A stretch of DNA of 64,000 bases from Anagrus nilaparvatae (lineage: Eukaryota > Arthropoda > Insecta > Hymenoptera > Mymaridae), in the NCBI GenBank assembly GCA_022575985.1, contig JAKSXM010000007.1, forward strand, positions 870,501-934,500, given 5' to 3'. How positions within the stretch are numbered: the stretch's first letter is position 1; every line of letters begins with the position of its first letter. The position numbers and the translations under genes were made by a program. The notes beneath the pieces were generated by a model, which ran no database searches, was not told the DNA's origin, and saw only the letters and a program-made list of their open reading frames with translations. Of the stretch, positions 6,230-55,207 are shown piece by piece.

Positions 6230-9200
6230 TAAAATTAGTCCTTAGAAAAATTATTAGAAATTTCTGACACTAAAAAAATATAAATTATTGTTACACCATA
6301 ATTCTGGATATTAGTATTTTCATATAAATAAATTAAGTACTAAGTCCAAAAAGAAAAAAAATTATTGTGTTTTTTTAATCTTTTTATACAAAAAATTTTG
6401 AAAAAAAAAATTTCGAAAAATTGCATATCAAATGGAGAAATCCTTTAAAACCATAATTCTGGATATTAGTACTTTCATAGAAATAAATTAAGTACTACGT
6501 CCAAAAAGAAAAAAAATTATTGTGTTTTTTTAATCTTTTTATACAAAATATTTTGAAAAAAAAAATTTCGAAAAAATTACATATCAGATAGAGAAATCCT
6601 TTAAAACCATAATTCTGGATATTAGTATTTTCATATAAATAAATTAAGTACTAAGTCCAAAAAGAAAAAAAATTATTGTATTTTTTTAATTTTTTTATTA
6701 AAAAAATTTTGAAAAAAAAAATATCGAAAAATTACGTATCACATGAAATAATCATTTAGAAACGATAATTCTAAATATTCGTACTTTCGTAGAAAAACAT
6801 TAAGTACTACATCCTAAAAAAAAAAAAAATTGGCATTTTTTATATTTTTTGGTGGCAAAAATTTTGACAAAAAAAATTTCAAAAAATTAAGTATCAGGTC
6901 CAAAAAATTACTTTTATAGAGGTTCTTAAAACTAGTACTTTCTTGGAAGCAAATTATGTACTGCGTTCAAAGAAAAAAAAAAATTGGTGTTTTTTGTATT
7001 TTTTTATGACAAAAATTTTGGGAAAAAAATTTTCAAAAAATTAAGTATCAGATTTGAGATATCGAGTAAAAACCATACTTTCAAATATAAGTACTTTTAT
7101 GGAAATAAATGAGGTATTACACATAAATTAAAAAAAAAAAAAAAAAGTATTTTGAAATCTCTTGATGAAAAAATTTTTAAAGAAAAAATTAGATCTTAAT
7201 TCCATAATGGTTGTTAAATACCACCGATTGCAAAATTTTCAAATATTAGTACTTTCATGGAATTAAAGGAAGTATTACACTAAAAAAAAAAAAATATTAC
7301 AGATTTTTTAATTTTTTTGTTTTTTTAATTTTGAGAAAAAAATTTTGAAAAAAAAAGTATCAGGTCCAAAAAATTACTGTAAACGAGGTTCTTAAAACTA
7401 GTACTTCCATGGAAATAAATTAGGTACTACGTCCAAAAAGAAAAAAAAGTTTCGTATTTTTTGTATTTTTTTGTGAAAAAAATTTTAGGAAAAAAATTTT
7501 CAAAAAATTAAGTATCAGATTGGAGATATCAAGTAAAAACCATACTTTCAAGTATAAGTACTTTCATGGAAATGAATGAGGTATTACATCCAAAATAAAA
7601 AAAAAGGGGTGGGTTTGAGATTTTTGGATAAAAAAATGTTTGGAAAAAAAATTAGGTCTTAATTCGATAATGGTTTTGAAATATCACTAGTTACAATATT
7701 TTCAGATATTAGTAGGGTAATTCCATGGATAAATAGCACAAAATGGAACGCGAGGTCTCAGAATTAAAAAATTTTATTTTTATTCGAAAAAACTACTTAA
7801 AATTAGATAATTCACCAAATCTGAAGGTTTTTTATAGATTTTTAAGAGAGTTATGCTGTTCTAAAGTTTTTTGGTAAAATTGCTCTCCTCAGCCACCATT
7901 TTTGAAAGTTCCGTAAAAAAGCTCCGGAAAACGTTAAAAAATAAAAAAAAAAAAGGTTTTCGATGTAAAATTTGATGAGGAATTCGAATTTTCAGTCAGA
8001 TTTTCCCCATTCTGTGCCCATTCGCGGGAAAATTCAAATTTCTGCCCCAAATTTGACAACTTTAAGTGAAAATAGCTGAAAGGCTTCCCACTGAAAAAAA
8101 AATTTTTTCTTCTGAAATTTTTCGAAAATTTCATATATATCATAGAAAAAATTTTCCTGAGGGTAATTTTTGATATAAGAGAGTAATGCTGATTTTAGTG
8201 AATTTTTCAATTTTCTCATTTTCGACTTGTTAGTTATATTGCTAATTTCCCGCTTAGTCACGTGACCAAATGAAAATCTGACAAAAAAATTGAATTCTGC
8301 AGGAAATTTTACAAGGGTATAGTAATTTTGGTAGCCTTAGAATAATACATCTCAATTTGACAAAATAAATAAAATTGATTTTAAAAATATAGAAAAAATG
8401 AAAATCGAAAAATGTGATTTTATTGATTTTTGTGTACTTTTTTAATCATTTATAGACATTTCGATGAAAAATAAACTCTAAACTTTAAAAAAAACTTATT
8501 TTTCATTATTAGTAAAACTAATTTTTGTTTCCCCAAAAGAAGTACTTTTATTTTTAGATTTTTCATGATTTTTAGACTAAAAATGAAAAAAAAATCAAGA
8601 AAATCCCATTTTAAAAATATTCTTTTTATTAAATTTTTATAATTAATTTTAATTATTTTGTCAAATTGAGATGTATCATTCTAAGGCTACCAAAATAACT
8701 ATACCCTTGTAAAATTTCCTGCAGAATTCAATTTTTTTGTCAGATTTTCATTTGGTCACGTGACTAAGCGGGAAATTAGCAAAATAGAGAAAATTGAAAA
8801 ATTCACTAAAATCAGCATTACTCTCTTATATCAAAAATTACTCTCAGGAAAATTTTTTCTATGATATATAATATATGAAATTTTCAAAAATTTCAGAAGA
8901 AAAAATTTTTTTTTCAGTGGGAAGCCTTTCGGCTATTTTCACTTAAAGTTGTCAAATTTGGGGCAGAAATTTGAATTTTCCCGCGAATGGGCACAAAATG
9001 GGGAAAATCTGACTGAAAATTCGAATTCCTCATCAAATTTTACATTGAAAACCTTTTTTTTTTATTTTTTAACGTTTTCCGGAGCTTTTTTACAGAACTT
9101 TCAAAAATGGTGGCTGAGGAGAGCAATTTTACCAAAAAACTTTAGAACAGCATAACTCTCTTAAAAATCTATAAAAAACCTTCAGATTTGGTGAATTATC

Positions 9201-11704: not shown

Positions 11705-13789
11705 ATGTCAGGACTATTTGATCAAATTCAACATTTATATAATCAAGCTTTATATTCAAACGTCATATCCTTGGTAACTTTTATTTAAATTAATTCAGTT
11801 CAATATGCCTATACATATATAATATCAAAATTGCTATTTTATTATTGCAGGCAAACTTAATATTATCTTTGAGCGATCACAATACTGACCTATTGTCAGC
11901 CTGTACAAAATTCCTGGTTCACTTATATTGTGCCGATTCATATTTTTACCTTGGAAACTATCGTAGAGCAGAAGTTTTGTATAACAAATGTTTGCAATAT
12001 CGTAAGTGTTTAATAAAATCTAAAACAACTATAAAAAGTAATCAAGAAGGACAAAAGGAACTTACATCGGATGTTGATATAAAATATCAAATATATTCTT
12101 GCTTTATGAAAATGAAAAATTGGCAAGAAGCTCTTCAAATATTGCAAAGTATCCCTGGAAAACAGCGCACACCAAAGGTAAATTTAGTTGTAACACATTT
12201 TTCAAACAAATATTTAATATGCTATTCAAAAACAGATAAATATGGCCCTTGCTAAACTATTTCAAGAACAAGGGATGGAACGTTCTGCAATAGCAACTTA
12301 TAAAGAAGTATTAAGAGAATGTCCATTGGCTTTAGAAGCAGCAGAAGGTTTATTAGCTTTGGGAGTTAAAGGAATTGAAGTCAATTCAATTATTTTAAGT
12401 TCTAATTTAAATTTACAAAACTTTGAGTGGTTGAATGCTTGGATGAAAGCTCATTCTCATATACATAACAAAGAGTATAGTAATGCAGTTGCTACTCTTA
12501 GATCACTAGATAATGTTAATTGTTTAAGAGATAACTGTACATTATTAATAACCATGAGTGAATGCTATTATTATTCTGGCGATTACAAAAATGCTTTATT
12601 ATGCTTAAGGAGAGCAAGAATAATTGAACCTGATACTACAAGAGGGTTTGTAACCTACATACAAACATATGGCTAAAATTTATATTTTGTTAATACAAAT
12701 ATTTTTATTTAGATTAGACATTTATGCAGCTGTATTGCAAAGAACTCAACATATAAATGAATTAGAAAAATTAATTCCAGTTATATCAGCGGCGTCAGAA
12801 TGTACTACAGAAATGTACACAGCCTTAGCGTATGCATTATTTGCTTTGCACAAGTTTAATAGAGCAAGTAATATAGCTAATCAAGCTTTGCAATTAGAAC
12901 CAAACAATATTGAAGCATTAATTTTACGAGGTAATATTCTTTTTGAACAAAAAAAATATCAGGATGCCTTACAACATTTTCGTCAAGCACTACAATTAAA
13001 ACCACATCGATATGAAGTTTTGAAAGGATTAGCAGACTGTTTTGTTAATACACATAGAATGAGAGAAGCTTCTAATATAGCAAGTACTGCTTACAATCAA
13101 TTGGGACCAACTCCTAGAGTCTTAACGGTAAAATAAATTTAAGGAAAATTCTTTATTTTTAAAAAATAATAATATTTAATTTTTGTTTGAAAATTATATG
13201 GATTTCTTTAAAAATCTTGCAGCTTTATGCCTCAGTTTTAATGAAAGATCCAGTTACAATGACTAAGGCAAAAAATCTTCTTGAAAAAGCATTAAGTCAA
13301 GAAGAATCATATTTACAAGCTGTTTATTATTTAGCTGAAATATATGATCAAGAAGTGAATCCAGAAGCAGCAATAGAACTTCTAGAAAAACAAGCAGAAA
13401 CAAATCCAACTTGTAAAATTCACCAAATGCTTGGTGACCTTTGGTCAAGACAGCAGAATGCTGAAAAAGCACTGGACCACTATGCAATAGCTTTAAAGTA
13501 AGTAGAATTAACTTTCAAAATTTAAAAAAATAGAATTTATTAACACGATTCTAACTTATATTTCAGTCTAAATCCAAATGACAGAAGAGTATTAGAAGGA
13601 ATGCATAGATTAGAAAGTTCTTCGAACGCACTAGATTCTTCATATTACATGGCTGTGGGTGAAGAACATACAGATGGTTCATTTGAAGTAGGGGAAGGAT
13701 TACCAGATACCGACAATGACGAAGCAGCAGATGAAAGCGAAACAGAAGCAGTTTGGTCGGATATGGATTTAGAAGCAAATTGTCAGTAA
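11705..13789 (+). CDS. APC7: Anaphase-promoting complex subunit 7 (APC7), TPR protein
   Basis: Six exons: 11705-11773, 11851-12177, 12236-12645, 12713-13127, 13223-13497 and 13567-13789, giving 1719 nt and 572 aa, close to the length of animal APC7. The protein is built of TPR repeats. Recognisable APC7 segments are IPGKQRTPKINMALAKLF, TYKEVLRECPLALEA, LLALGVKGIEV, the repeat around ALQLEPNNIEALILRGNILF, ASVLMKDPVTMTKAKNLLEK, YAIALNLNPNDRRVLEGM and an acidic tail. APC7 is a scaffold subunit in the TPR lobe of the APC/C ubiquitin ligase, which receives co-activators. The donor of exon 3 is GTTTGT at 12646; it is preferred to a better-looking GTAACC at 12650 because only it keeps the frame (RG-L-DIYAAV). 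AATAAA at 13882-13887 is the likely polyadenylation signal. Confidence 0.93.
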
Positions 13790-26040: not shown

Positions 26041-26441
26041 TATAATGATCGTGCTGCTTATAATTCAGTATAAATGAGGTGTTTAAAATTGGTAGATGGT
26101 GTCAAGTTACTACTGTTTGCGAATCACCGTGTATATAAAAACAATTTCTTTGAATCAAGTCATATAATATTTATAGCGCTGCAATATAATATTCAGAGAA
26201 CCTCAAAACTTATAATTATTCAGTGTGTAAGTCTACCTGAACAATTTAATATCAAAAGTTTTAATACGTATTACCTTCACTAAGTTAACACATACAAAAA
26301 ATGTCATTATTACGACAATTAGCAAAGAAAATCAATGCAATAATTCGACAGTATATAAAAAATTCAATTTAATGTAGTCTATTGAAGTGGCTCGTGCACG
26401 AGGTTGAATTATAAACCCGTAAAAAAATTAGAAATGAAAAG

Positions 26442-29400
26442 ATGAAAGTCGCAATACTGCCTTTTAAATTATTAAATATTATTGGAGTTTGGGAATCTCA
26501 AAATATTAGTTCTAAGACTATTGAAAATTTCAGAAGAACTCGTCATTTTTGTTTTTATTTCTTTACTCTAACAGTAACAATTTTGCAATTCATTAAAATT
26601 ATTGCATTAATAAAATCGTCAGATTTAAATATTGACAATTTAACAGAAATTTTTTATACAATATCAATTCGAAGTTTAGTTATAATTAAAGTGTCAGAAT
26701 TGGCTTACAATAAGAAAAAGGTTTTACGTTTAGAAAAAATAATTTTATTATTTTCGGATAAAAATGATTTATTTGACCAAAAGTGCGAATCAACAATAAG
26801 GTAATTAACTTCTTGCAGTTTCATTCAATTAGATTGGTAAGTGATTATTCAATTTTTTTTTGTTCTTTTTAGTCGATTAACAACTGGTTTGTCTACTCTT
26901 GTTATTTTATTATTTACTTCTCATTATTCCCATTCAGTATTAGACAAGGTATTCGATAGAAACGATGATTTAAAATTGCCAGTAGAAATATATACATTTG
27001 TTGAATTAAATCAAAGTAATTACAATTACTTTTTAATTTTGGAAATAATTTCAGGCATAAATTCTTGTTTAGCAGGCTTAGCATTTAATTTAATGTTTTT
27101 TGGCTTAGTTTTAAGAGTTGAAAATCTTTTTCCAAAATTAAAAAATAATTTAGCAACTTTAAATGATATTAACTCTATAAAAGGATCGAAAATGCTTATT
27201 GAAAATGAAGAAAAAAAGAAACTTGCCGCAATTATTTTTCAGCATCAAAAAATTTTTGAGTTTGTATTTATTTTTTAGATTATATATTTTTTTTAAACAT
27301 TTTAATTAATTGTGTTTTATTATTACAGCGCCTCAGATATAATAAATAGTTCTTTTACTATATCATTAAGTTTGCAATATTTTACAAGCGCGATTTTCAT
27401 TAGTCTAGGTGTTTATAGATTATCAATAATAGACTTATACGATCTACCGACTGTACTTGCAACAACTATTTACGTGATAACAATGCTGACCGAGTTATTT
27501 GCATTTTGTAAAATAGGAGACATAATTTTGCATAAGGTACTTTTTTTTAATTAAGCACTTACGATATACTAGAAAGAGAAGAAGAATATAATAAAGAATT
27601 AGGATTCGAACTACTGCTTCTCTTTTCAATACAAAAATCGGGCAGATTCGTCACGGTATAGGTAGAGCTGCTTTGGTTGAATATTAATTATTTGTTGAAC
27701 CAGTTGGTTAAAAATTCAACCAAAAATAGTAAAATTCAACCAATTGGTTGAATATTCAACCAAAGCAGCTCTACCGTGTATTTAACTTTTGACGCAGAGT
27801 GCAGTACGGAAAGTTAAAGCACTACATTTTTTTCTTATTTTTCAACACATATCCAGTGAAAAATTGTTTTGATGGTTAATCTAATTATATAGAAATGAGT
27901 TTATTTTTTCAAATTAAATAGCTATTCTTTTACCAAGAGGCAAAATATTAAATATATAACGAAAAAAGAATTTTTTTTCATGCAAGGATTTAAGTTCCAA
28001 TGCTGTTCGCACTTTCTAGTGCATATATATACCACTGCTTTAAATTCATTTTTTTTTTTTTTTTTTTGTAATAGGCTTTAAAAATTGTAAATAAAAGTCT
28101 AATTTTTCACATTTTTTTTAGAGTTTCGAATTCAGAGAAGAACTCTACAATCCTGATTTTCATTTACTGAGTAAATCATCAAGAAAAACGATTGTAATTA
28201 TGATGATACGCTCATTGAAGCCTATAATAATATCTGGTGGACCGCTGATCGAGTTCCATTTAACATCATTTCTTAAGGTAATTTATAATAAAAAATCTAG
28301 CCTGCTCTTGGTGTACACATCTATTATAAAACGAATATTACTCCAGTCAAAATACGGGTTTGGTTATATAGTTTCTGGCCACCACCAGATTTGGTCTAGT
28401 ATAGGTTTCTTGGGTCGTTGATCACGAAAATCGGGGTCTTTTCTATGAGGAATTGGGGCTTGACCCTTAAATTGGCCAAAACTTGCCCTAAAAAGGGCAT
28501 TTTTGCTACATTCACTCTAAGTCTTTGAAATTTGGTATACGGGGGGGGGGGGTTTCGGGTCGCTGATCACGAATATTCAGGTATTTTTTATGAAAAATGA
28601 GACCTTCGCCCTTAAATTGGGACAAACGAGCCCTAAAAAGGGCATTTTAGCTATACATTCACTAGCCCTCTAAAATTTGGCATACGGGGGTTTCTTGGGT
28701 CGCCAATCACGAATATTCAGGTATTTTTTATGCAAAATTAGACCTTTGCCCTTAAATTGACCCGAACTAGTCCTTAAAAGGGCAATTTTGCTATATTCAC
28801 TCTAGCCCTCTAAAATTTGGTATACGGTGGTTTTTTGGGTCGCTGATCACGAATATTGAAGTATTTTTTTATTCAAAATTAGACCTTTACCCTTAAATTT
28901 GCCCAAACTAGCCCTAAAAAGGTCATTTTTGCTACATTCACTCTACCCCTCCTTGTGATTTTTTGTTTATTTTAATAATAAGTTTAAAACTTTTCAGGGT
29001 TTTTTTTGGCTAATTTATGGGTGAAGGTCTAGTTTTTTATAAAAAGTACCTCAAAATTCATTTTCAGTGACCCGAAAACCCCCGTATACCAAATTTTAAA
29101 GGCCTAGAGAGAATACAGCGAAAATGCCCTTTTTAGGGGTAGTTTTGGCCAATTTGAGGATGAAGGTATAATTTTTCATTAAAAAATACCTCAATATTCG
29201 TGATCAGCGACCCAAAAAGCCCCGTATACCAAATTTTAGAGGGGTAGAGTGAATGTAGCAAAAATGCCCTTTTTAGGGCTAGTTTGGGCAAATTTAAGGG
29301 CGAAGATCTAATTTGGCAAAAAAAAACCTCAATATTCTTTTTCTGTAACCCAAAAAACCCCTGCAGACCAAATTTCAAAGGCTTAAAGTGAATGTAGCAA

Positions 29401-38646: not shown

Positions 38647-39832
38647 TTACATGTGTCTTGTGTTTCCGAAACCACCGTGTCCAGATTGACTAGCGCCTTT
38701 GTTGAAACCCATTTGTAAATTGAGTTGTCCTTCGCTGGCACGTAATTGATCTTCTGTAAATGTCCTTTTGTTTTCATCAGCCATTTTTGGTCCTAATCTT
38801 GGTCCAGTGTATTCTGGGTGTTTTTGTGTCTAAAAAACAATCGACGACGTTAGATCGAGTCTTTTGATTTAAGTAAATAAGTGTACTTACGATCCTTCCA
38901 AGTGAATATAAGCAAAGTGTAACTTGTGCAATGTTTCGTTTCTCGAATAAATCGGCTGTTTGGAAAATTTCTTCTTCCGGTACACCGTATTTCTTGATAG
39001 CAGCTTGGAATCTCTGCACGTTTTCCATTAATTGGAAATTCGTACCTTTTGTTTGTATTTTTTTAACTGAATCTGGTGCAATTTTATTTATTAATTTGCA
39101 TAAAACAACACCATCTTTTAATATGTCTTCGTAACTTCCACCTGATAATTTTTCACCCAATACATTTTCGATCCACTCCAATACTTCTTGTTCTTGTTCC
39201 TTGTTTCGTGGCTAAAAATAACATTTTAATAAATAAATAGTATTATTGATGACGTAAAACTTTATGGATCTCTGGCAATAATTTTGCATCTCTATAGACG
39301 ATTAGCTATTAATTCTAAAAATAATCTTGTAATTTATGATCTTGTTATTTCAATCAAAATTGATTTTCTTTTCAGCTAATTAATATCGAAAAAATACACA
39401 ATCGCATTGTTGTTCGATTTTCAAGGTGCGCAAAATATGAATAATGTCATAAAACAATTCAAAATTTTTCTTTTAATTTTTAGCTTTGACCGTGAATTAT
39501 TATTTTTCATCATATTTTTTGACAAAATCGTCATTTTTAAAATTTTTAATATAATATTATGGAATAAAAAAAAATATTAAATGACTTCCGGTATAAGGTA
39601 AAATGAAATTCAAAAATAGCATTTCCCGGATACATACATGCGTATAAAGTACGCATAAAAATTATACATTTTTAATAAAGAACGTCGACCTTTTATTGCA
39701 ACTTTAAATTAACAAACAGCAGCTAAATTTTTAAACAACATTGCACAATTTTCGTTAAATTTTTGAATTAAACGGTTTTTATTTTAGAATTAAAAAGCGT
39801 TCTAATTGCAATAATTGTGTACATACCGCCAT
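38647..39832 (-). CDS. Chd64: Chd64, transgelin/calponin-family actin-binding protein
   Basis: Three coding exons on the minus strand: 39832-39827 (only ATGGCG), 39211-38891 and 38829-38647, giving 510 nt and 169 aa. A single calponin-homology domain spans most of it (VLEWIENVLGEKL, YEDILKDGVVLCKLINKIAP, GTNFQLMENVQRFQAAIKKY, FQTADLFEKRNIAQVTLCLY). One calponin repeat follows (LNLQMGFNKGASQSGHGGFG) and the chain ends NTRHM, the same ending as fly Chd64. Fly Chd64 is an actin-associated protein also linked to juvenile-hormone response. The two-codon first exon is typical of this gene family. No break is seen. Confidence 0.94.
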
Positions 39833-45084: not shown

Positions 45085-48000
45085 CTATAAAAGTTTGACC
45101 GGTATCTGGTTATTTGCACATGACAAACTAAAATATAATTTTTTCCAAAAATATCGATCACCCCATTCAATATAAGTGTTAAGGCGTAAATAACCTTTAA
45201 GTTCAGAATCAAGATCGTCATATTTCCCAATGTCACCATATAAAATTATAATAACCCTCGTCCTGTTTTCCTTTAGCATTTGACTATACGCAGTTTTAAA
45301 CTCCATCATTCCCCATTTACTATTAACAAAATTTTTTGATAAAACAATGAGGGTTCGTCTTGATTCTTCGACCGACTTAAATATATTAGTTTGTATCCAT
45401 TCTCCAGCTTCCCAATCTCGAACATGAATGCAAACTTTGAATTTTCTTGGGTTTTCTTCAATTTTTGGTAAAATTTCGTTTAAGACGACATCTTCGTCTT
45501 GGTGGCAAAAGCTTAGAAAAACGTCGTATTTTTTGCTGGGATCCAATTTATCCATTGGTATCAGCCAGGAGCAGACGTCGTGAGAATAGAGAAATATTTT
45601 TATTTCAAGTTGGTAAACGTAAAGTAATAAAATTATCATTAAAACGATACAGAGGAATGTCGCTGAGGATGCAACAACTATAATCCACTTTGAAGAACTC
45701 AAATTTAAGCAATATTTTTGAACGAAATCGTTGAATTCAATATTTTCCTTAAAACAGTTTATTTTCTTTAATTGATTCATTTTATCGGTAGTGAAATTCT
45801 GGTAAAGCAAATCTTGTAGTGAACAATCGCACTCTAAGGAGTTGTCACTTATTATTAAGTTTTCGAGGCTACTGAAGATTTTACGAAAAACTTTCACATC
45901 CTTAAAATGAATCGAGTTGTTGACCAAATTCAGATGCTGAAACAACAAATTTTACTGGTTAAATAGTTCTAACATTTTATATTTTCATGAAAAATCATAC
46001 CGTGTTCGGATAATTTAAAATTTTTTCATCTACATTTTTGATCGAATTATTTGATAAATCCAACAATCTGACTTTACGATGAAAAATTCCTTGTATATTT
46101 GGGACATCCGTCAGTTGGTTATTTTGTAAATGAATTTCAATGTTGGATGAATTTAAGTACCAGTTGAAATGAAATTCAGGCACTTTTGATAAATTTCTGT
46201 TGGAACAATTGAGTAACAGCACATCGTCGTATGGTCGGTGTAGGCAGTCGCAATCCCCATTTTTACCGCAAACACTGTTTAAGGCCAAACTTAAAAATTC
46301 TGGTTCGCAGGTGTAAGTCTTGTGATTAAAATTTGCAACTTTTTTAAAAATCTTTTGGTTTGAAGAGGAGTTTTGAAAAAAGCACGAAAAGTCGTCAAAA
46401 GTAAATAACTTTTTTTGACTTTTCTTTGAATTTCCCATGTACTCTATCAGATTTGATAGTTTACAGTCGCACGGTATCGAATTATTTTCTAAGTAAATAA
46501 GATTTTCTGTTTTATTCAAATTTTTGTTGCGTGAAAATTCTCGAGAGATGGAAATTTGGGAAATGTTATTATTTTCAAGGTGCACATTGATTACTTTGGA
46601 GTTGAAAAGGAAATGTTCTTGCTGAAATAATAATGTTTTAGAAGGTATGTTAAAATGATCGTTTAAAATAATAGCTTTAAAATTTACCGAAATATTCAAG
46701 TGAGTAAATGAATTGTTCGTCAAGTCCAAATTCACTAACTTTTCTAAATATTTCCAATCGTCACAAATTCTGCTGATATTGTTGTTGAGTAAATTTAATA
46801 TTTTTAGATTTGCGCAATTTGCGAAAGGTGAAGTGTTACGCCCTTGGCTCAAGTTATTTAAAAATGACATTTCATTATTGGCTAAGTTTACAGTGACCAG
46901 CTGACAAAATGTGGAGAAAACATGTTCATCAATGTATTTTAAACGATTACTTTCAAGGTTAAGATATTTTAATTTATTTAAATTTTTGAAGATTCCTCTG
47001 AAAATAAAAATAATATAATAAATAAAATTAGTAAAATACGATATTTTTAAATTACTGACATACAGCGAATCTGCCTTTAGATTACCAAATTTAACATATC
47101 TTTATATTATATACTTTAAAGTGTGAATCTATATCTTTGGAATATAATGTATATTTACTTAGTTATCTTTATTTAATTTGACAAGTACATTATCAAAATA
47201 TAAAAATCTCAAAAATTCGATATTTTAAAAAAAATAGAGGATTATAATTTCAATATATTGTCAATATATTGTTTATATTTTATCAAACAATATTATTTTT
47301 TTCAAAATATGGCTATATAAAATTATTTCAAAAAACTAGGCTGTCAATGGTAGTGTTATTGAAAAATCGCTTGAATACCATATTTTTAAAAAATTTATAT
47401 TTCGTGGGGTCCTATTAAAAACTGGCATGTATCTTTTTTCACAAACGAAGACCCCGATATCTTACTATGCATACAACGTATATTATGTCGGTGCCTTCCT
47501 TAGAAAAAAAATAACATAGCCAGTTTTTAATAGGACCCGACGATTTGATCATCTTTTTGGAAAAAGAAGAATGCCCTTTTTTGTAATAATTTCGTAATAA
47601 AAGGTTAGACTCTCTATCAGAATGAACTTACTTGGGTATTGCTGAAAGATAATTATATGATAAATCCAATAACTCAATATTTCTGTTTTTTATAAAAATA
47701 TCCCCTGACAACTTTTCGAGTTTATTGTGATTAATTTCAAGGTTATATAGTTCAGTAAGATTCTGGAAAATTAAGACAGGTAATTTTTTTATTAAATTAT
47801 TGGCCAAAAATAATTCAGTCAGTTTATTTGTATGTTGAAAAATGTTTTCTGTAAATATTTCGATTTTATTATTTTCAAGATGCAACTGAATCAAATTACT
47901 CAAATTTTTAAAAGCTGCAGATGGGACAATTGAAATTTTATTGTCATTCAGATATAATTTTTCCAAATTAGTAAGATTTCTGAACCCTTTGAATTCTGCT

Positions 48001-50216
48001 TCATTCGGTAGTGCAGTTAAATTTTTGCTTGAATCCGAAAATTCTTTGGGCAGAAACTCAATACCATTGAAACTTAAATCCAAACTTTTTAACATTGGTA
48101 AATTTAAAAATTTGCGTAAAAATTGCCAATAGTTTTCAATTTTGTTGATATTGTTGTGAGCAAAATTTAACTGTTCCAGCTGATTACAATGTGTAAATGG
48201 AGAGAAGTACAACTCTTCAGTAAAATTAATTGGCCGAGAAATTCTATTATTGGCGAAGTTGCCATACAGCAATGGGCAGTTGCTACTAAAAACAGCTGGA
48301 TCTATGTAATCGATGTGATTATTATCAAAATACAATGCACTTAATCTTAGTAGTTTGCTGAAAACTCCTCTAAAAAAAATAAAAAAATAATATTAAAACA
48401 AGCATTTCGAAGTTGAATGTATTTAAACTCGATAATTTGTGTCTTTTTTTCGTTTATAAAATATTTTTGTCCTATCTTATATCAAAGATTTCTAGCTTCC
48501 TAGATCAAATTTTTGTTTTTGACACCCGTAACTCAAATTCTAGAAGGGATTGCCTATCTGAGTTTCAAAAAAAGTATATAATAACTCGTTTTTGATTAAA
48601 TATTATTCGTTTGATAGAATAGATAAAATACAATAATATTGAGGTAATTTTTAGAAATAATGAAAAACACTAAAATGGCTGTCAAAAATTAATAATTGCA
48701 CTGTAAAAAGTAACTTTCTTAGATTAACAAAAAAAATAGCATTTTTTCGAAAAATTAATGAATTTTTAAAAAATTTTGTAAATATTCGATAAAAATCGTA
48801 AATTTGCTAAATTTAGTATATTATCGAAAAATTGGAGAATTCTCGATTTTTTTTTGTGAATTTACGAAAAAAGTTGTAAATTCACAACTACTTTTCGGAA
48901 ATTTACAACTATTTTTTGTAAACTTTTGAAAAAAAATTGTAAATTATCAATTTTTCTTGCGAATTCACAAAAAAAAAATCGAGAATTCTCGAATTTTTAG
49001 ATAATATATACTAAATTTAGTAATTATACGATTTTTTTCGAATATTTACAAATTTTTTCGAAAATTTACTAATTTTTCGAAAATGTTCTAATTTTTTTGT
49101 TAATATAAGAAAGTTACTTTTTGCAGTGTGGTATATAAAAAGTTAAAAATTCAGAATCGATTTAAAGACTCTAGCAAAATATTTATAAGTTTACTTCCAA
49201 ACGAATTTACTTAGGTAGCGTTGTAAGATGATTGTTTGTGAAATCCAAGTCAAAAATGTTTTGATTGTATTTGAGAATATCTTCTGGTAAGTTAACCAAT
49301 TTATTTGTACTTATTTTTAAGGAAAACATTTCAGTAAGATTCTGAAAAATATTGAAAGGCAAATTCTGTAAATAATTCTGGCTTAAAAATAAAAGTCTTA
49401 TTTTTTGAGTGTGTTGAAAAAGTTTTCCTGAAAGTTTTATAATTTTATTGTAGTCAATCCTCAAAACCTGCAATTCTTTTAAGTCGTCGAATGTTGCAGA
49501 GGGAATGGTGGAAATATCATTATGTTGAAGATACAATGTTCTTAATTTTCTAAGATTTCGGAATGCACCTGCCTCTATCGTGTTAATATTATTAAACGCG
49601 AAATCCAAAAGGTACAATTTCTCAAGTCCATCAAACCATCCAGTTTCAATTTTTTTGAGTAAATTATTTTCGATGTGTAATTTTTCTAAATTTTTATTTT
49701 CATTAAAGAATTTTTGTGGAATAACTTGAATTTTATTCGAGGCAAAAATTAATACACTAATCATTGGTAAACCTAAGAATTAAAAAAGATGTTAAATTAA
49801 TTTAATAATATCGATAAATTTTCAGATTAACATTTTTTACCTTTAATAAGATCGCTATCAAGTTCTGTAATGTTTAATCCTTTTAAATAAAGTTCCTTTG
49901 TTTCAAAGTAAGGTTCAAAATCTTTTCTCGACAAAATTATATTCCTTAATTCAAATATTTGAACAGACATATCGTTATTGTGTTTTTTTACTTTGAATGC
50001 CATGTATTTGTCATTTTCACAGCGAATTTTAGTTTTTTTCTCTTTGTCAGAAATTTTAGTTTCTTCACATTTGCAATCATAATAGCTTATGCACGCAGGC
50101 GAAGAAACCAGGTTAACAGCGTTAGATAACGATAATAACAAAAGAACTTTGAATAGCAAAAACACATCACAGTAGAACAATTTTTTGTAAAAAAATGCAC
50201 TGCAAATAGAAAACAT
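45085..50216 (-). CDS. Toll: Toll receptor, copy A (LRR ectodomain, TM, TIR)
   Basis: Five exons on the minus strand: 50216-49841, 49772-49211, 48369-47632, 46997-46001 and 45936-45085. Phases are consistent and give 3525 nt and 1174 aa. A hydrophobic signal segment precedes SSPACISYYDC. Many leucine-rich repeats follow (for example NLEKLYLNDNKISIVPSAAF). Then come a first cysteine cluster (PCDCKLSN...CSCFF-type) and a second N-terminal-type cluster (CGKNGDCDCLHRP), more LRRs, and a final LRR-CT (ECDCSLQDLL). A transmembrane helix lies near residues 975-1000, and the TIR domain from KYDVFLSFCHQDED (about 1027) to FWKKLYFSLS. This multiple-cysteine-cluster layout is that of Toll itself; such receptors bind Spatzle-type ligands and signal through MyD88. 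Introns 2 and 3 carry MITEs. Confidence 0.92.
47407..47538. mobile_element. 132-bp MITE in Toll A intron 3
   Basis: A perfect 20-bp terminal inverted repeat, gggtcctattaaaaactggc at 47407-47426 and its reverse complement at 47519-47538. It lies between exons 3 and 4 and is absent from the matching intron of copy B. Confidence 0.8.
48699..49128. mobile_element. 430-bp MITE in Toll A intron 2 (CACTG ends)
   Basis: The left end cactgtaaaaagtaactttc is inverted at the right end (gaaagttactttttgcagtg). The inverted similarity continues through the whole element as A/T-rich words built around tcgaaaaatt and gaattctcga. It makes intron 2 of copy A 841 bp, against 79 bp in copy B. A partial relative is at 23349-23490. 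Confidence 0.8.
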
Positions 50217-50550
50217 AATGCTTAGAAATTTTTTGGGTTTTATAATTTTTTTGGTTTACTCGAAACTTTCCTAAGACACACGCACTTAACAAGTACTTAG
50301 TTAGATTTTTATGAAATGTAGATATTACTCAATATTTATTTTAATTTAAAGTAAAATTAAAATTTTATTTTTATCGAAATATATACAAAAAAAGATATTC
50401 AATATTTTTTATCTGTTTTTATCTCTAAATATAAACACAGCAATCTTTTATGTACAGGTATTTTTATATATAATTAAAAAAATAACATCTTTTCTAGTTT
50501 ATACAACTTAATTTATTTATTGTTTGATGATGTTTACAGTTAGAGCGCTC

Positions 50551-50684
50551 AAAGTTAAAGCCCCAATTTCTTTGCCAAATAACCCCCGAATTTTCGTGTT
50601 CAGCGATCCAAAAAACGTATAACAGAGCAAATCTGGTGTTCAACAGTGATAATACAACCACTCTCTCTCCTGTTTTGACTGGAG
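50551..50684. mobile_element. Right-end fragment of the ctccagtcaaaa foldback family
   Basis: It matches the right end of the element at 28341-29630: taaagccccaatttct, gaattttcgtgttcagcgat, caaatctggt, aatacaacc and the terminal ttttgactggag. It lies in the 676-bp gap between the two Toll genes. It lacks the (GAA)n insertion found in the other copy. Confidence 0.7.
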
Positions 50685-50892
50685 TGCAAGTATAGTTGTC
50701 CCAAGTGGAGCGCTACTTGATGATGGCTCAGACCGTTTTTCACTGGTGCAGAAATAAACCATTTATTTTATTATTTTTATAATATTAAGAGCGAATAGTT
50801 TCTTCTTAATGAAAACTCTTTTAAAAAATTTTCTTTTATTTAAATTTTGAATGAGCTATTTTAACTATTTACTAACTTAATTTACTCCAATG

Positions 50893-53800
50893 TTATAATT
50901 GTTTGGTCGGCAGTTGGTTATCAGCACATGACAAACTATAAAACAATTTTTTCCAAAAATAGCGATCACCCCATTCAATATAAGTATTCAGTTTTAAATA
51001 ACTCATAAGGTCAGAATCAAGATCTTCATATCTTCCAACGTCATCATATAAAATTATAATAACCCTCGTCCTCTTTTCTTTTAGCATTTGACTATGCGCA
51101 GTTTTAAACTCCATCATTCCCCATTTACTATTAACAAAATTTTTTGATAAAACAATGAGGGTTCGTCTTGATTCTTCGACCGATTTAAATATATTGGTTT
51201 GTATCCATTCTCCAGCTTCCCAATCTCGAACATGAATGCAAACTTTGAATTTTCTTGGGTTTTCTTCAATTTTTGGTAAAATTTCGTTTAAGACGACATC
51301 TTCGTCTTGGTGGCAAAAGCTTAGAAAAACATCGTATTTTTTGCTGGGATCCAATTTATCCATTGGTATCAACCAGGAGCAGACGTCGTGAGAATAGAGA
51401 AATATTTTTATTTCAAGTTGGTAAACGTAAAGTAATAAAATTATCATTAAAACGATACAGAGGAATGTCGCTGAGGATGCAACAACTATAATCCACTTTG
51501 AAGAACTCAAATTTAAGCAATATTTTTGAACGAAATCGTTGAATTCAATATTTTCCTTAAAACAGTTTATTTTCTTTAATTGATTCATTTTATCGGTAGT
51601 GAAATTCTGGTAAAGCAAATCTTGTAGTGAACAATCGCACTCTAAGAAGTTGTCACTTATTATTAAGTTTTCGAGGCTACTGAAGATTTTACGAAAAACT
51701 TTCACATCCTTAAAATGAATCGAGTTGTTGGCCAAATTCAAATGCTGAAACAACAAATTTTACTATTTAAATAGTTTTAAAATTTTATTTTTTCAAGAAA
51801 AATCATACCGTGTTCGGATAATTTAAAATTTTTTGATCCACATTTTTGATCGAATTATTTGAGAAATCCAACAATCTGACCTTACGATGAAAAATTCCTT
51901 GTATATTTGGGACTTCCGTCAGTTGGTTATTTTGTAAATGAATTTCAATGTTGGATGAATTTAAGTACCAGTTGAAATGAAATTCAGGTACTTTTGGTAA
52001 ATTTCTGTTGGAACAATTGAGTAACAGCACATCGTCGAATGGTCGGTGTATGCAGTCGCAAACCCCATTTTCACCGCAAACACTGTTCAAGGCCAAACTA
52101 GAAAATTCTGTTTCACAGGTGTAAGTCTTGTGATTAAAATCCGCAACTTTTTTAAAAATCTTTTGGTTTGAAGAGGAGTTTTGAAAAAAGCACGAAAAGT
52201 CGTCAAAAGTAAATAAATTTTGTTGACTTTTCTTTGCATTTCCCATGTACTGTATCAGATTTGATAGTTTACAGTCGCACGGTATCGAATTATTTTCTAA
52301 GTAAATAAGATTTTCTGTTTTATTCAAATTTTTGTTGCGTGAAAATTCTCGAGAGATGTAAATTTGGGAAATGTTATTATTTTCAAGGTGCACATTGATT
52401 ACTTTGGAGTTGAAAAGGAAATGTTCTTGCTGAAATAATAATGTTTTAGAAGGTATGTTAAAATGATCGTTTAAAATAATAGCTTTAAAATTTACCGAAA
52501 TATTCAAGTGAGTAAATGAATTGTTCGTCAAGTCCAAATTCACTAACTTTTCTAAATATTTCCAATCGTCACAAATTCTGCTGATATTGTTGTTGAGTAA
52601 ATTTAATATTTTTAGATTTGTGCAATTTGCAAAAGGTGACGTGTTGCGCTCTTGGCTCAAGTTGTTTAAAAATGATAATTCATTGTTGGCTAAGTTTACA
52701 GAGACTAACTGACAAAATGTGGAGAAAACATGTTCATCAATGTATTTTAAACGATTACTTTCCAGATTAAGATATTTTAATCTATTTAAATTTTTGAAGA
52801 TTCCTCTGAAAATAAAATATGACTTTGAAAATGATATTTAATAATTGATTAGGATTTAATGCAAAATCATAGGACTTGCAAAAGTAGAATCTAAAGGCCT
52901 CGACAGATGTATTACATTATATCGGTACGTTCTTTTAACCAACAAGAGGTGTAAATTGAATTCTTGATCAACTAGGGAGCGTACATCATTTGGTACGCGT
53001 ACTAAGCTGTTCTAAACTTTAGTACGCGTACCGAATAATATACGATCACTGATTGATCAAGAACTCGATTTACACCTCTTTGGGACTTTCTACAATTGAG
53101 CGAATGAATGCACCGAAATAATGTACTGCATCTGTCGAGACCTTAAAAATATATGCGGACTTGTAGGTTTTGCAAGTAAAATTTCTGTGTTTTAAACTCA
53201 ACATTTTTTGCAAGCAAAAAATTTCAATCTTTTGATGTTAATGAAGAGGAGAATCAGTCTATAAGTGCATAGAATATTATTTTATCGAGATAAAATTTTA
53301 AGAAAATAAATTGATTTATTTCGTATGCATTGTAATTTAACGATCCAAAGGATAAATGCCTTTCTTGTGGCTATACTTACTTGGGTATTGCTGCAAGATA
53401 ATTGTATGATAAATCTAATAATTCAATATTTCTATTATTTATAAAAATATCGCCTGACAAGTATTGCAATTTATTGTAACTAATTTCTAGTTTAGACAGT
53501 TCAGTAAGATTCTGGAAAATTAAGGCAGGTAATTTTTCTATTAAATTATTGGTCAAAAATAATTCAGTGAGTTTTCTCGTATGTTGAAAAATTTTGTCTG
53601 TAAATATTTCGATTTCATTATTTTCAAGATGCAAGTGAATCAAATTTCTCAAATTTTTAAAAGCTGCAGACGGGACAATAGAAATTTTATTGTCATTCAG
53701 ATATAATTTTTCCAAATTAATAAGATTTCTGAATCCATCGAATTCTACTCCATTCAGTAGAGCATCAGTTAAATTTTTGCTGGAATCCAAAAGTTTTTGA

Positions 53801-55207
53801 GGGAGAAACTCAATACCATTGAAACTTAAATCCAAACTTTTTAACATTGGTAAATTTAAAAATTTGCTTAAAAATTGCCAATAGTTTTCAATTTTGTTGA
53901 TATTGTTGTGAGAAAAATTTAACTGTTCCAGCTGATTACAATGTGTAAATGGAGAGAAGTACAACTCTTCAGTAAAATTAATTGGCCGAGAAATTCTATT
54001 ATTGGCGAAGTGGGCATACAGCAATGGGCAGTTGCTATTAAAAACACTTGGATCTATGTAACCGATGTTATTATTATCAAAATATAAAGCTTTTAAACTG
54101 AATTGTTTGCTGAAAATTCCTCTAAAATTATAAAAATTAGAAAAATAAATTTATTGGGTAAAAACTATTTTTTTGGCTGAATAATATTTTAACGAACTTA
54201 CTCGGGTAGCCGTGTGATCTGATTATCTGAGAAATCTAGGTCAGAAATGATTATATTGTGTTGAAAAATTGTTCCTGGTAAGTTAACTAGTTTATTTGAA
54301 CTTAGTTTGATGGAATATATCTCAGTAAGGTTTTGGAAGATACTTGCAGATAGGCTTTCTAAATAATTCTGGCTTAAATATAATCGTTTTAGTTTTTGAG
54401 TATGCTGAAAGAGTTTTCCTGATAGATTTTTAATTTTATTATTGTCAATTTGCAAAACCTTCAATGCCTTTAAGTCGTCGAATGTTGTAGATGGAATTGT
54501 CGAAATGATATTATGTTGAAGATAGAGTGTTCTTAACTTTCTGAGATTTCGTAAAGCACCAGTTTCTATAGTGCTAATATTATTGTACGAAAAATTCAAT
54601 TCGAGTATCTTATCGAGTCCATCAAACCACCCAGTTTCGATTTTTTTGAGTAAATTATTTTCGATGTGTACTTTATCTAAATTTTTACTGTTATTGAAGA
54701 ATTTCGGCGGAATAACTTTAATTTTGTTCGATCCAAAATATAACTGCTTTATCATTGGTAGTCCTGGCGAAAGAAAAACGTTTTTATTTATTAAAATAAG
54801 TAAATAATTTTTAATTTTATTTCTGTACCTTTAATAAGATCTTTATCGAGTTCCGTGATGTTTAAGTTCTTTAAATTAAGTCTTCTGATTTCATAATAAA
54901 TTTCAAAATCTTTTTTCGTTAAAACTATGTCTTTTAACTTAAGGATTTCAATAAACCAATTGTCATTATTATGTTTTTCTACTTGGAATTTCAAATATCT
55001 GTTATTTTCGCATCGAACTTCAATTATCTTGTCTTTTTCCGAAATTTCAGTTTCTTGACATTCGCAATCATAATAGTTCTTACAAGCAGGTGAAGAAACT
55101 AAGTAAACTACGTTAAAAAATGATAATAATAGCAAAATACCAAATGACGCAGACACATAATTATAAAATAATTTTTTAATTGAAAGTGAATTTGAAAGAC
55201 GAAGCAT
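50893..55207 (-). CDS. Toll: Toll receptor, copy B (LRR ectodomain, TM, TIR)
   Basis: Five exons on the minus strand: 55207-54829, 54763-54202, 54121-53381, 52805-51809 and 51744-50893, giving 3531 nt and 1176 aa. An in-frame ATG at 55231 would add eight residues; 55207 is preferred because it gives a leader closer to copy A. Domain order is as in copy A: signal segment, SSPACKNYYDCEC, LRRs, two cysteine clusters (CDCKLSN, CGENGVCDC), LRR-CT (ECDCSLQDLL), TM near 977-1002 and TIR from KYDVFLSFCHQDED. Exons 4 and 5 are almost identical to copy A, while exons 1 and 2 differ at many residues. Exon 3 is one codon longer than in A. Intron 3 holds its own MITE (52894-53144). No frame break is seen, so both copies look functional. 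Confidence 0.92.
52894..53144. mobile_element. ~251-bp MITE in Toll B intron 3
   Basis: The left end aaggcctcgacagatgtatt is inverted at the right end (gtactgcatctgtcgagacctt, one or two changes). Inside are further inverted words: gaggtgtaaat/atttacacctc, cttgatcaa/ttgatcaag and ttggtacgcgtact/agtacgcgtaccgaa. It is absent from copy A. Confidence 0.75.

Follow-up and report, generated by a model that had tools for sequence, protein, structure and literature searches.

The closest described parallel to the genes reported here is the mammalian TLR1/TLR6 pair, for which Kruithof et al. (2007; PMC2077338) report independent gene conversion in mammals, nine species having been examined, over a segment running from leucine-rich repeat (LRR) 16 to about three quarters of the way into the TIR domain. 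For insect Tolls, Table 1 of Lima et al. (2021; PMC8296651) gives 5 to 28 genes across 39 insects, with 28 in Manduca sexta, 8 in Tribolium castaneum and 12 in Onthophagus taurus. Here we analyse a stretch of 64,000 nucleotides of Anagrus nilaparvatae (Hymenoptera; Mymaridae; assembly GCA_022575985.1, contig JAKSXM010000007.1, positions 870,501 to 934,500), hereafter the window, which is C62:870501-934500 in our naming of the 488.7 Mb genome in 393 contigs. It carries two tandem Toll genes, A and B, whose rear parts are near-identical and whose fronts have diverged, and we are highly confident that repeated interlocus gene conversion between the two is the best explanation. What stands out as unusual is the receptor family to which this pair belongs, both in how large it is and in how it is made up.

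A divergence mosaic between twin Toll genes

Gene A (45085..50216) and its upstream neighbour B (50893..55207) both lie on the minus strand, as do all their features given below. A has five coding exons (50216-49841, 49772-49211, 48369-47632, 46997-46001 and 45936-45085) that join in an intact spliced frame of 1174 residues, and the spliced model of B has five as well (55207-54829, 54763-54202, 54121-53381, 52805-51809 and 51744-50893), encoding 1176 residues. Exons were placed from GT-AG borders and the reading frame; all introns of both genes are GT-AG, internal stops are absent, and the spliced models bear out the shared exon layout and phases that had been proposed for the two receptors. 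When protein A was aligned to the B sequence with splicing allowed, the same exons came back, the last one without the stop codon.

Protein A combines an LRR ectodomain with a transmembrane (TM) segment that starts near residue 975 and a TIR domain that starts at residue 1028 (Pfam LRR_8, E 1.2e-71; TIR, E 1.6e-19). Cysteines stand ahead of the TM segment at 927, 929, 952 and 967, and an internal cluster occupies positions 735, 737, 764, 789, 802, 808, 810 and 823, which we take to be of the multiple-cysteine-cluster type; two genes at C62:8.6 Mb have stop-free models and, judged by eye, no internal cluster. In a tree of 34 TIR rows, 12 TIR halves of this genome form one group of their own (100/99). 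They are placed with Dmel Toll, with Tehao and with tolls of other insects, in an unresolved branching order, and apart from five Toll-6-type rows that separate at 100/100. The LRR and TIR domains, the cysteine cluster and the TIR grouping thus point to Toll receptors of the Toll-1 (Toll/Tehao) subfamily. A Toll-9-like identity, an idea from a first tree, was dropped: the neighbour P0006 proved by search to be Tehao/Toll-5, and the second tree puts the family with Toll. The 12 best database matches of the TIR half reach 33-49% identity, and five of the eight named proteins among them come from beetles, the rest from fly, millipede and mayfly.

Divergence between A and B falls into blocks. NG86 synonymous divergence (dS) is 0.83 and 0.73 in exons 1 and 2, and 0.15, 0.085 and 0.094 in exons 3, 4 and 5; amino-acid differences number 56/125, 55/187, 39/245, 21/333 and 18/283, respectively. 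The diverged 5' part, which encodes the signal peptide and N-terminal LRRs, spans exons 1-2 (49211..50216 in A, 54202..55207 in B). The original prediction, made from the letters of the window, had correctly noticed the many residue differences in exons 1-2, the roughly two differences within the first 210 residues of exon 5 (2/210) and the renewed drop in similarity over its last 60 (15/60 differ). For exon 4 its count of about 20 differences agrees with the 21 found, but the length it assumed, about 285 residues, is short of the actual 333, and it passed over exon 3, where divergence is also low.

Segmentation of third-position mismatches yields five blocks with sharp edges and four breakpoints: 107/325 mismatches in codons 1-325, 0/93 in codons 326-418, 35/199 in codons 419-617, 13/495 in codons 618-1112 and 15/62 in codons 1113-1174. 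The two blocks of lowest mismatch are the putative recent conversion tracts. Tract 1 (codons 326-418, exon 3) lies at 48054..48332 in A and 53806..54084 in B, and tract 2 (codons 618-1112, from exon 4 through intron 4 and in exon 5 into the TIR domain) at 45274..46822 in A and 51082..52630 in B; the end of the TIR domain (codons 1113-1174 and stop), at 45085..45273 in A and 50893..51081 in B, lies beyond the tract. The homogenised part starts about 12 codons into exon 3 and covers most of the C-terminal ectodomain, the TM segment and the first 60-65% or so of the TIR domain.

These blocks are significant at silent sites. In Sawyer-type run tests of our own (not GENECONV itself), the longest match runs at outgroup-polymorphic sites comprised 92 and 79 sites, at codons 925-1014 and 621-706, against a longest run of 40 in 10,000 permutations (p about 1e-4), and a separate test on synonymous differences only, at shared residues, gave p = 0.0002, the floor of that test. 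Shared amino acids, methionine and tryptophan excluded, use the identical codon at 142/202 positions in codons 1-318, 688/725 in codons 326-1126 and 26/33 in codons 1127-1174. As to GC-biased conversion, third-position GC in A and B rises only weakly, from 0.277/0.274 (codons 1-318) to 0.327/0.326 (codons 326-1126), and is 0.229/0.271 at the end. Two of the checks proposed with the original prediction, synonymous divergence along the genes and a test for conversion, came out in its favour, with blocks in place of uniform divergence.

Could stronger purifying selection on the 3' half, with no recombination at all, have produced the same picture? The outgroup gene C195_1990 gives this idea some footing, since nonsynonymous divergence (dN) from it drops to 0.15 in the TIR windows, below the values for the LRRs. 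The same blocks, however, appear at synonymous sites, and intron 4, within tract 2, is identical between A and B at 58/64 positions without a gap. Moreover, the distances of A and of B to the outgroup show no step matching the mosaic, and none at exon 3: of 20 windows per gene, 16 have a dS of 0.57-1.51, one exceeds 2 and three are saturated, and dN stays at 0.21-0.46 as far as residue 1020 and then is about 0.15 over the next 120 residues. The third-position and outgroup data refute purifying selection alone for practical purposes, and we consider it extremely improbable.

Probable conversion between A and B, and where it would stop

We favour gene conversion because synonymous divergence is a mosaic, the outgroup lacks a matching gradient, the tracts are double-ended, and, among the matches listed, neither gene has a closer relative than the other in either half; on these grounds the proposal of conversion between the twin Tolls is well supported. 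In exon 2 the two are mutual best matches at 70% identity, against 55% for the next relative (among the best 150 of 748 candidates), and in exon 5 at 94% against 65% (among the best 137 of 258); a third gene that might have served as donor was sought and none was present among these matches. Both ends of the homogenised part fall inside diverged or non-homologous sequence, so that two breakpoints are seen.

A single unequal crossing-over, which would leave a chimeric gene with a young 3' half, is easily imagined in a tandem array, and one break near the exon 2/3 border would account for the main step in divergence. Such an event should have brought the 3' flank along, but similarity between A and B ends about 13 bp beyond the stop codon, and none was found in 600 bp of flank on either side. 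Four breakpoints are required by the segmentation, and the two genes are nearest to each other, among the matches listed, in the 5' half as well. We regard a single crossing-over as very unlikely.

The introns bear on the template. Intron 3 of A (46998..47631, 634 bp) cannot be aligned with intron 3 of B (52806..53380, 575 bp), though both neighbouring exons appear converted, and each contains a palindromic insert (about 47402-47543 in A, about 52944-53080 in B). Exons 3 and 4 homogenised around an intron that is not would suit conversion through complementary DNA, in which a spliced transcript is copied back without regard to introns. Yet intron 4 lies inside tract 2 at the gap-free identity given above, from which it follows that the copying was of DNA carrying that intron, and neither gene has lost an intron; a spliced template thus seems scarcely credible to us.

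The inserts of intron 3 are of the hairpin type and mutually dissimilar, and we label them provisionally as MITE-like (resembling miniature inverted-repeat transposable elements). Intron 2 of A (48370..49210), 841 bp long compared with 80 bp in B, holds a further palindrome at about 48699-49128.

A fourth possibility is that the assembly itself collapsed near-identical tandem copies or joined them chimerically. Haplotig contigs do seem to have been retained: L022 (C113:7002644-7012643) and L023 (C182:1409718-1419717) share blocks 98.4-99.0% identical, and C182 has the look of a C113 haplotig that escaped purging. The near-identical part of A and B, however, still differs at 13 of 495 third positions and six sites of intron 4, and both genes sit on one 74 Mb contig, so that we give an artefact hardly any weight.

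Repeated conversion between A and B would then have run as follows. The two genes would go back to an old tandem duplication of a receptor gene of Toll-1 type, and parts of exons 3, 4 and 5 would later have been copied between them more than once, through interlocus conversion in DNA repair. Tracts would end where homology or similarity gives out, namely on meeting the flanks, the diverged exons 1-2 or intron 3 with its copy-specific palindromic inserts. As an outcome, the front (signal peptide and N-terminal LRRs) would evolve apart, and the rear (C-terminal LRRs, LRR-CT, TM segment and about the first 60-65% of the TIR domain) would be kept near-identical. The mosaic with its statistics and the exclusion of the flanks and of intron 3 are observed; that the events were germ-line conversions of DNA, and their number and order, we infer.

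Three observations sit less comfortably with this account. Homogenisation of exons 3 and 4 around an unrelated intron 3 requires separate tracts or a later replacement of the intron. The zone around that intron (codons 419-617) has intermediate divergence, and an older event must be assumed for it. Furthermore, heterogeneity is not significant in seven of the 11 pairs of the family that we tested (p 0.066 to 0.86), although some of these offered few differences for the test. As for the intermediate zone, the exon 3/4 border falls within it, at codon 558/559, and its divergence would fit strand exchange being hampered near non-homologous DNA, with only older events reaching the zone.

Homogenisation and ectodomain modules across the family

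It had been suggested that conversion would keep the signalling half uniform while the ligand-binding half diverges. The diverged front agrees with this, but the tract also spans much of the ectodomain and omits the end of the TIR domain. Drosophila Toll binds Spaetzle on the kind of LRR surface formed by the exposed positions of the LxxLxLxxN motif, and changes between A and B in exon 2 are concentrated on such positions (22/42, compared with 33/125 other non-consensus positions; Fisher p = 0.004). Downstream the excess is absent, with 9/53 against 28/197 in codons 326-617 and 0/25 against 17/238 in codons 618-900. Selection may perhaps favour or tolerate a common signalling end with two ligand faces, or the near-identical rear may be only a by-product of similarity in a tandem pair.

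The 11 pairs tested for heterogeneity came from fetched loci and were not all tandem neighbours, the non-tandem members being L016 (C95), L021 (C11) and L027 (C95, 4.8 Mb away). Where loci were widely spread, models chained across genes and only the last one or two exons were used. The set excludes C195 1990/1995 (an incomplete model), L032_8605/8609 and L033_8616/8619 (models interrupted by stops), L009/L010 and L019/L020 (out of frame), L014/L028 and L013/L018 (which gave no usable model), and L021/L027 and L015/L024 (compared in windows only). Four of the 11 are heterogeneous at p < 0.05, namely A/B (0.0002), C195 2586/2590 (0.0020), L024/L026 (0.0022) and C195 2006/2012 (0.023), and three, A/B among them, remain so after Bonferroni correction.

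In the three other heterogeneous pairs the block of low divergence lies elsewhere, and this tells against a signalling half kept uniform as a rule. In C195 2586/2590 the low block surrounds the internal LRR-CT/LRR-NT and the TIR domain is diverged (dS 0.67-1.1); in C195 2006/2012 divergence is low in the 5' part and over most of the TIR domain, and high in the middle; in L024/L026 the TM region is diverged and the TIR domain close. The TIR domain is not consistently inside the tract in these related pairs. Patchy homogenisation thus recurs in the family, without general targeting of the signalling half.

A separate kind of change is seen in the gene C195_2012, in which an exon (C195:2014465-2015746, in L031) carries 11 consecutive near-identical LRR units of 24 residues; the model of its tandem neighbour C195_2006 has one such unit, which suggests recent growth in LRR copy number.

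Some loci of the family appear to contain ectodomain modules without a listed TIR exon of their own. At L015 (C317:27322984-27332983), the one such locus seen in DNA, two complete N-terminal modules (exons 1-3; 407 and 408 residues), each with its own signal-peptide exon, lie at L015:1021-5194 and 7411-8938, stop-free and with all donors and acceptors present, and downstream of both there is just one exon 4 and one TM-TIR exon 5. The modules differ from each other by dS 0.26 and dN 0.177; a neutral copy at half that distance would be expected to have picked up about 12 stops, and not one of 2000 copies simulated was stop-free. For the C317 cluster we listed ten N-terminal modules (two with stops; among the best 150 of 747 candidates), seven exon-4 modules (a 67-residue fragment excluded) and seven TIR exons, and with these numbers more than half of the C317 TIRs have a single module.

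Across the genome, outside the suspected haplotigs, 143 exon-4-like modules were compared with a TIR list of best-scored candidates only. The start of a TIR lies at most 2.5 kb downstream in 96 of them and 2.5-20 kb downstream in 22, and 25 have no listed TIR within 20 kb. The argument rests on these 25, since at least two of the 22, those of L021 and L028, belong to ordinary genes in which intron 4 is long; the modules come from the best 150 of 248 candidates, the weakest at 27-30% identity, and some may be other LRR genes. Six exon-2 modules (one with a stop) at C157:10.83-10.90 Mb likewise have no listed TIR near.

It is possible, though we would put it forward only tentatively, that at some loci alternative ligand-binding fronts are spliced to one shared TM-TIR end. 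If true, the separation of a variable front from a constant back would go further than conversion takes it. The plain alternative is that the TIR-less modules are secreted or truncated receptors, or recent fragments.

Toll-like ectodomain arrays that are nearly all stop-free and have no listed TIR exon inside were also observed at C157:10834537-10903338, C157:8675009-8806298, C195:2989483-3031046 and others; on the same strand, the first array is followed by a listed TIR only after about 2 Mb and the second by one at 8.827 Mb, and for the third none is listed on the contig.

Within the window, the Toll pair has ordinary neighbours: a tetratricopeptide repeat (TPR) protein at 11794-13789, by eye presumably like APC7/CDC27, what we take, also by eye, to be a chemoreceptor-like membrane protein at 26415-27554, and a calponin/muscle-protein-20-like gene at 38777-39211, which several insect orders match about equally (best named match 90%, a wasp).

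Family size and comparison with known systems

A TIR profile search of the genome scored 150 matches of 189 candidates and an exon-5 search 137 of 258, and together they give at least 156 TIR loci, in 27 clusters and 29 singletons. This full list is a lower bound, since only the best candidates were scored, and some of its TIRs lie outside the family; two of them, which sit on C62 in long single frames (1247 and 1292 residues), look like Toll-6/7/8. If C182 is a haplotig, raw copy counts in the assembly are slightly inflated. Without C182 and the contigs C292, C152 and C189, which are suspected (only C113/C182 was checked in DNA), 150 listed loci are left, and 147 when C11 is also set aside. 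In a tree of 56 rows, 35 of the listed TIR halves form one group (95/92) of Toll-1 type.

The best-known insect Toll reads the cytokine Spaetzle, and a family this large would suggest more diversified or direct recognition. Hyper-expanded TLR families that are large, clustered and lineage-specific occur in sea urchin and amphioxus, and sea urchin TLRs are mostly single-exon genes; the large clustered repertoire is alike here, but consists of multi-exon Toll-1-type genes in an insect. The cassette arrangement proposed above can be likened to the clustered first exons of the protocadherin and UGT1 loci. With about 150 listed TIR loci, mostly clustered, this one insect lends itself to the study of how receptor fronts are diversified by conversion, duplication and perhaps exon sharing while a signalling end is kept.

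Domain order and TIR phylogeny agree with the insect Toll and Toll-3/4/5 (Toll-1) subfamily as set out by Lima et al. (PMC8296651). The 147-156 listed TIR loci, in contrast, are far above the 5-28 Tolls tabulated there (PMC8296651).

The nearest counterpart of the A/B pair itself is TLR1/TLR6. By comparison with the mammalian study (PMC2077338), both are tandem Toll-type paralogs with diverged N-terminal LRRs, and in both the C-terminal LRRs, LRR-CT, TM segment and most of the TIR domain are homogenised, with the end of the TIR domain left out. Identical codons for shared residues in the tract and in the N-terminal part amount to 96% and 56% on average for TLR1/TLR6 (PMC2077338), and to 95% and 70% for A/B. 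The mammalian evidence comes from one gene pair in nine species (PMC2077338) and ours from one pair in one genome. Unlike the mammalian tract, the tract of A/B also extends further 5' into the ectodomain, is interrupted by a non-homologous intron 3, and is of mixed age, with more than one level of divergence. A literature search, whose coverage did not extend to most subscription journals, found no report of conversion between insect Tolls. When exon 5 is aligned with TLR1, the tract of A and B extends no further than the strand VIIILY (TLR1 has LILILL there), presumably within about 20 residues of the mammalian end point. A and B may therefore be the first example in insects of conversion as in TLR1/TLR6, ending at a similar place in the TIR domain.

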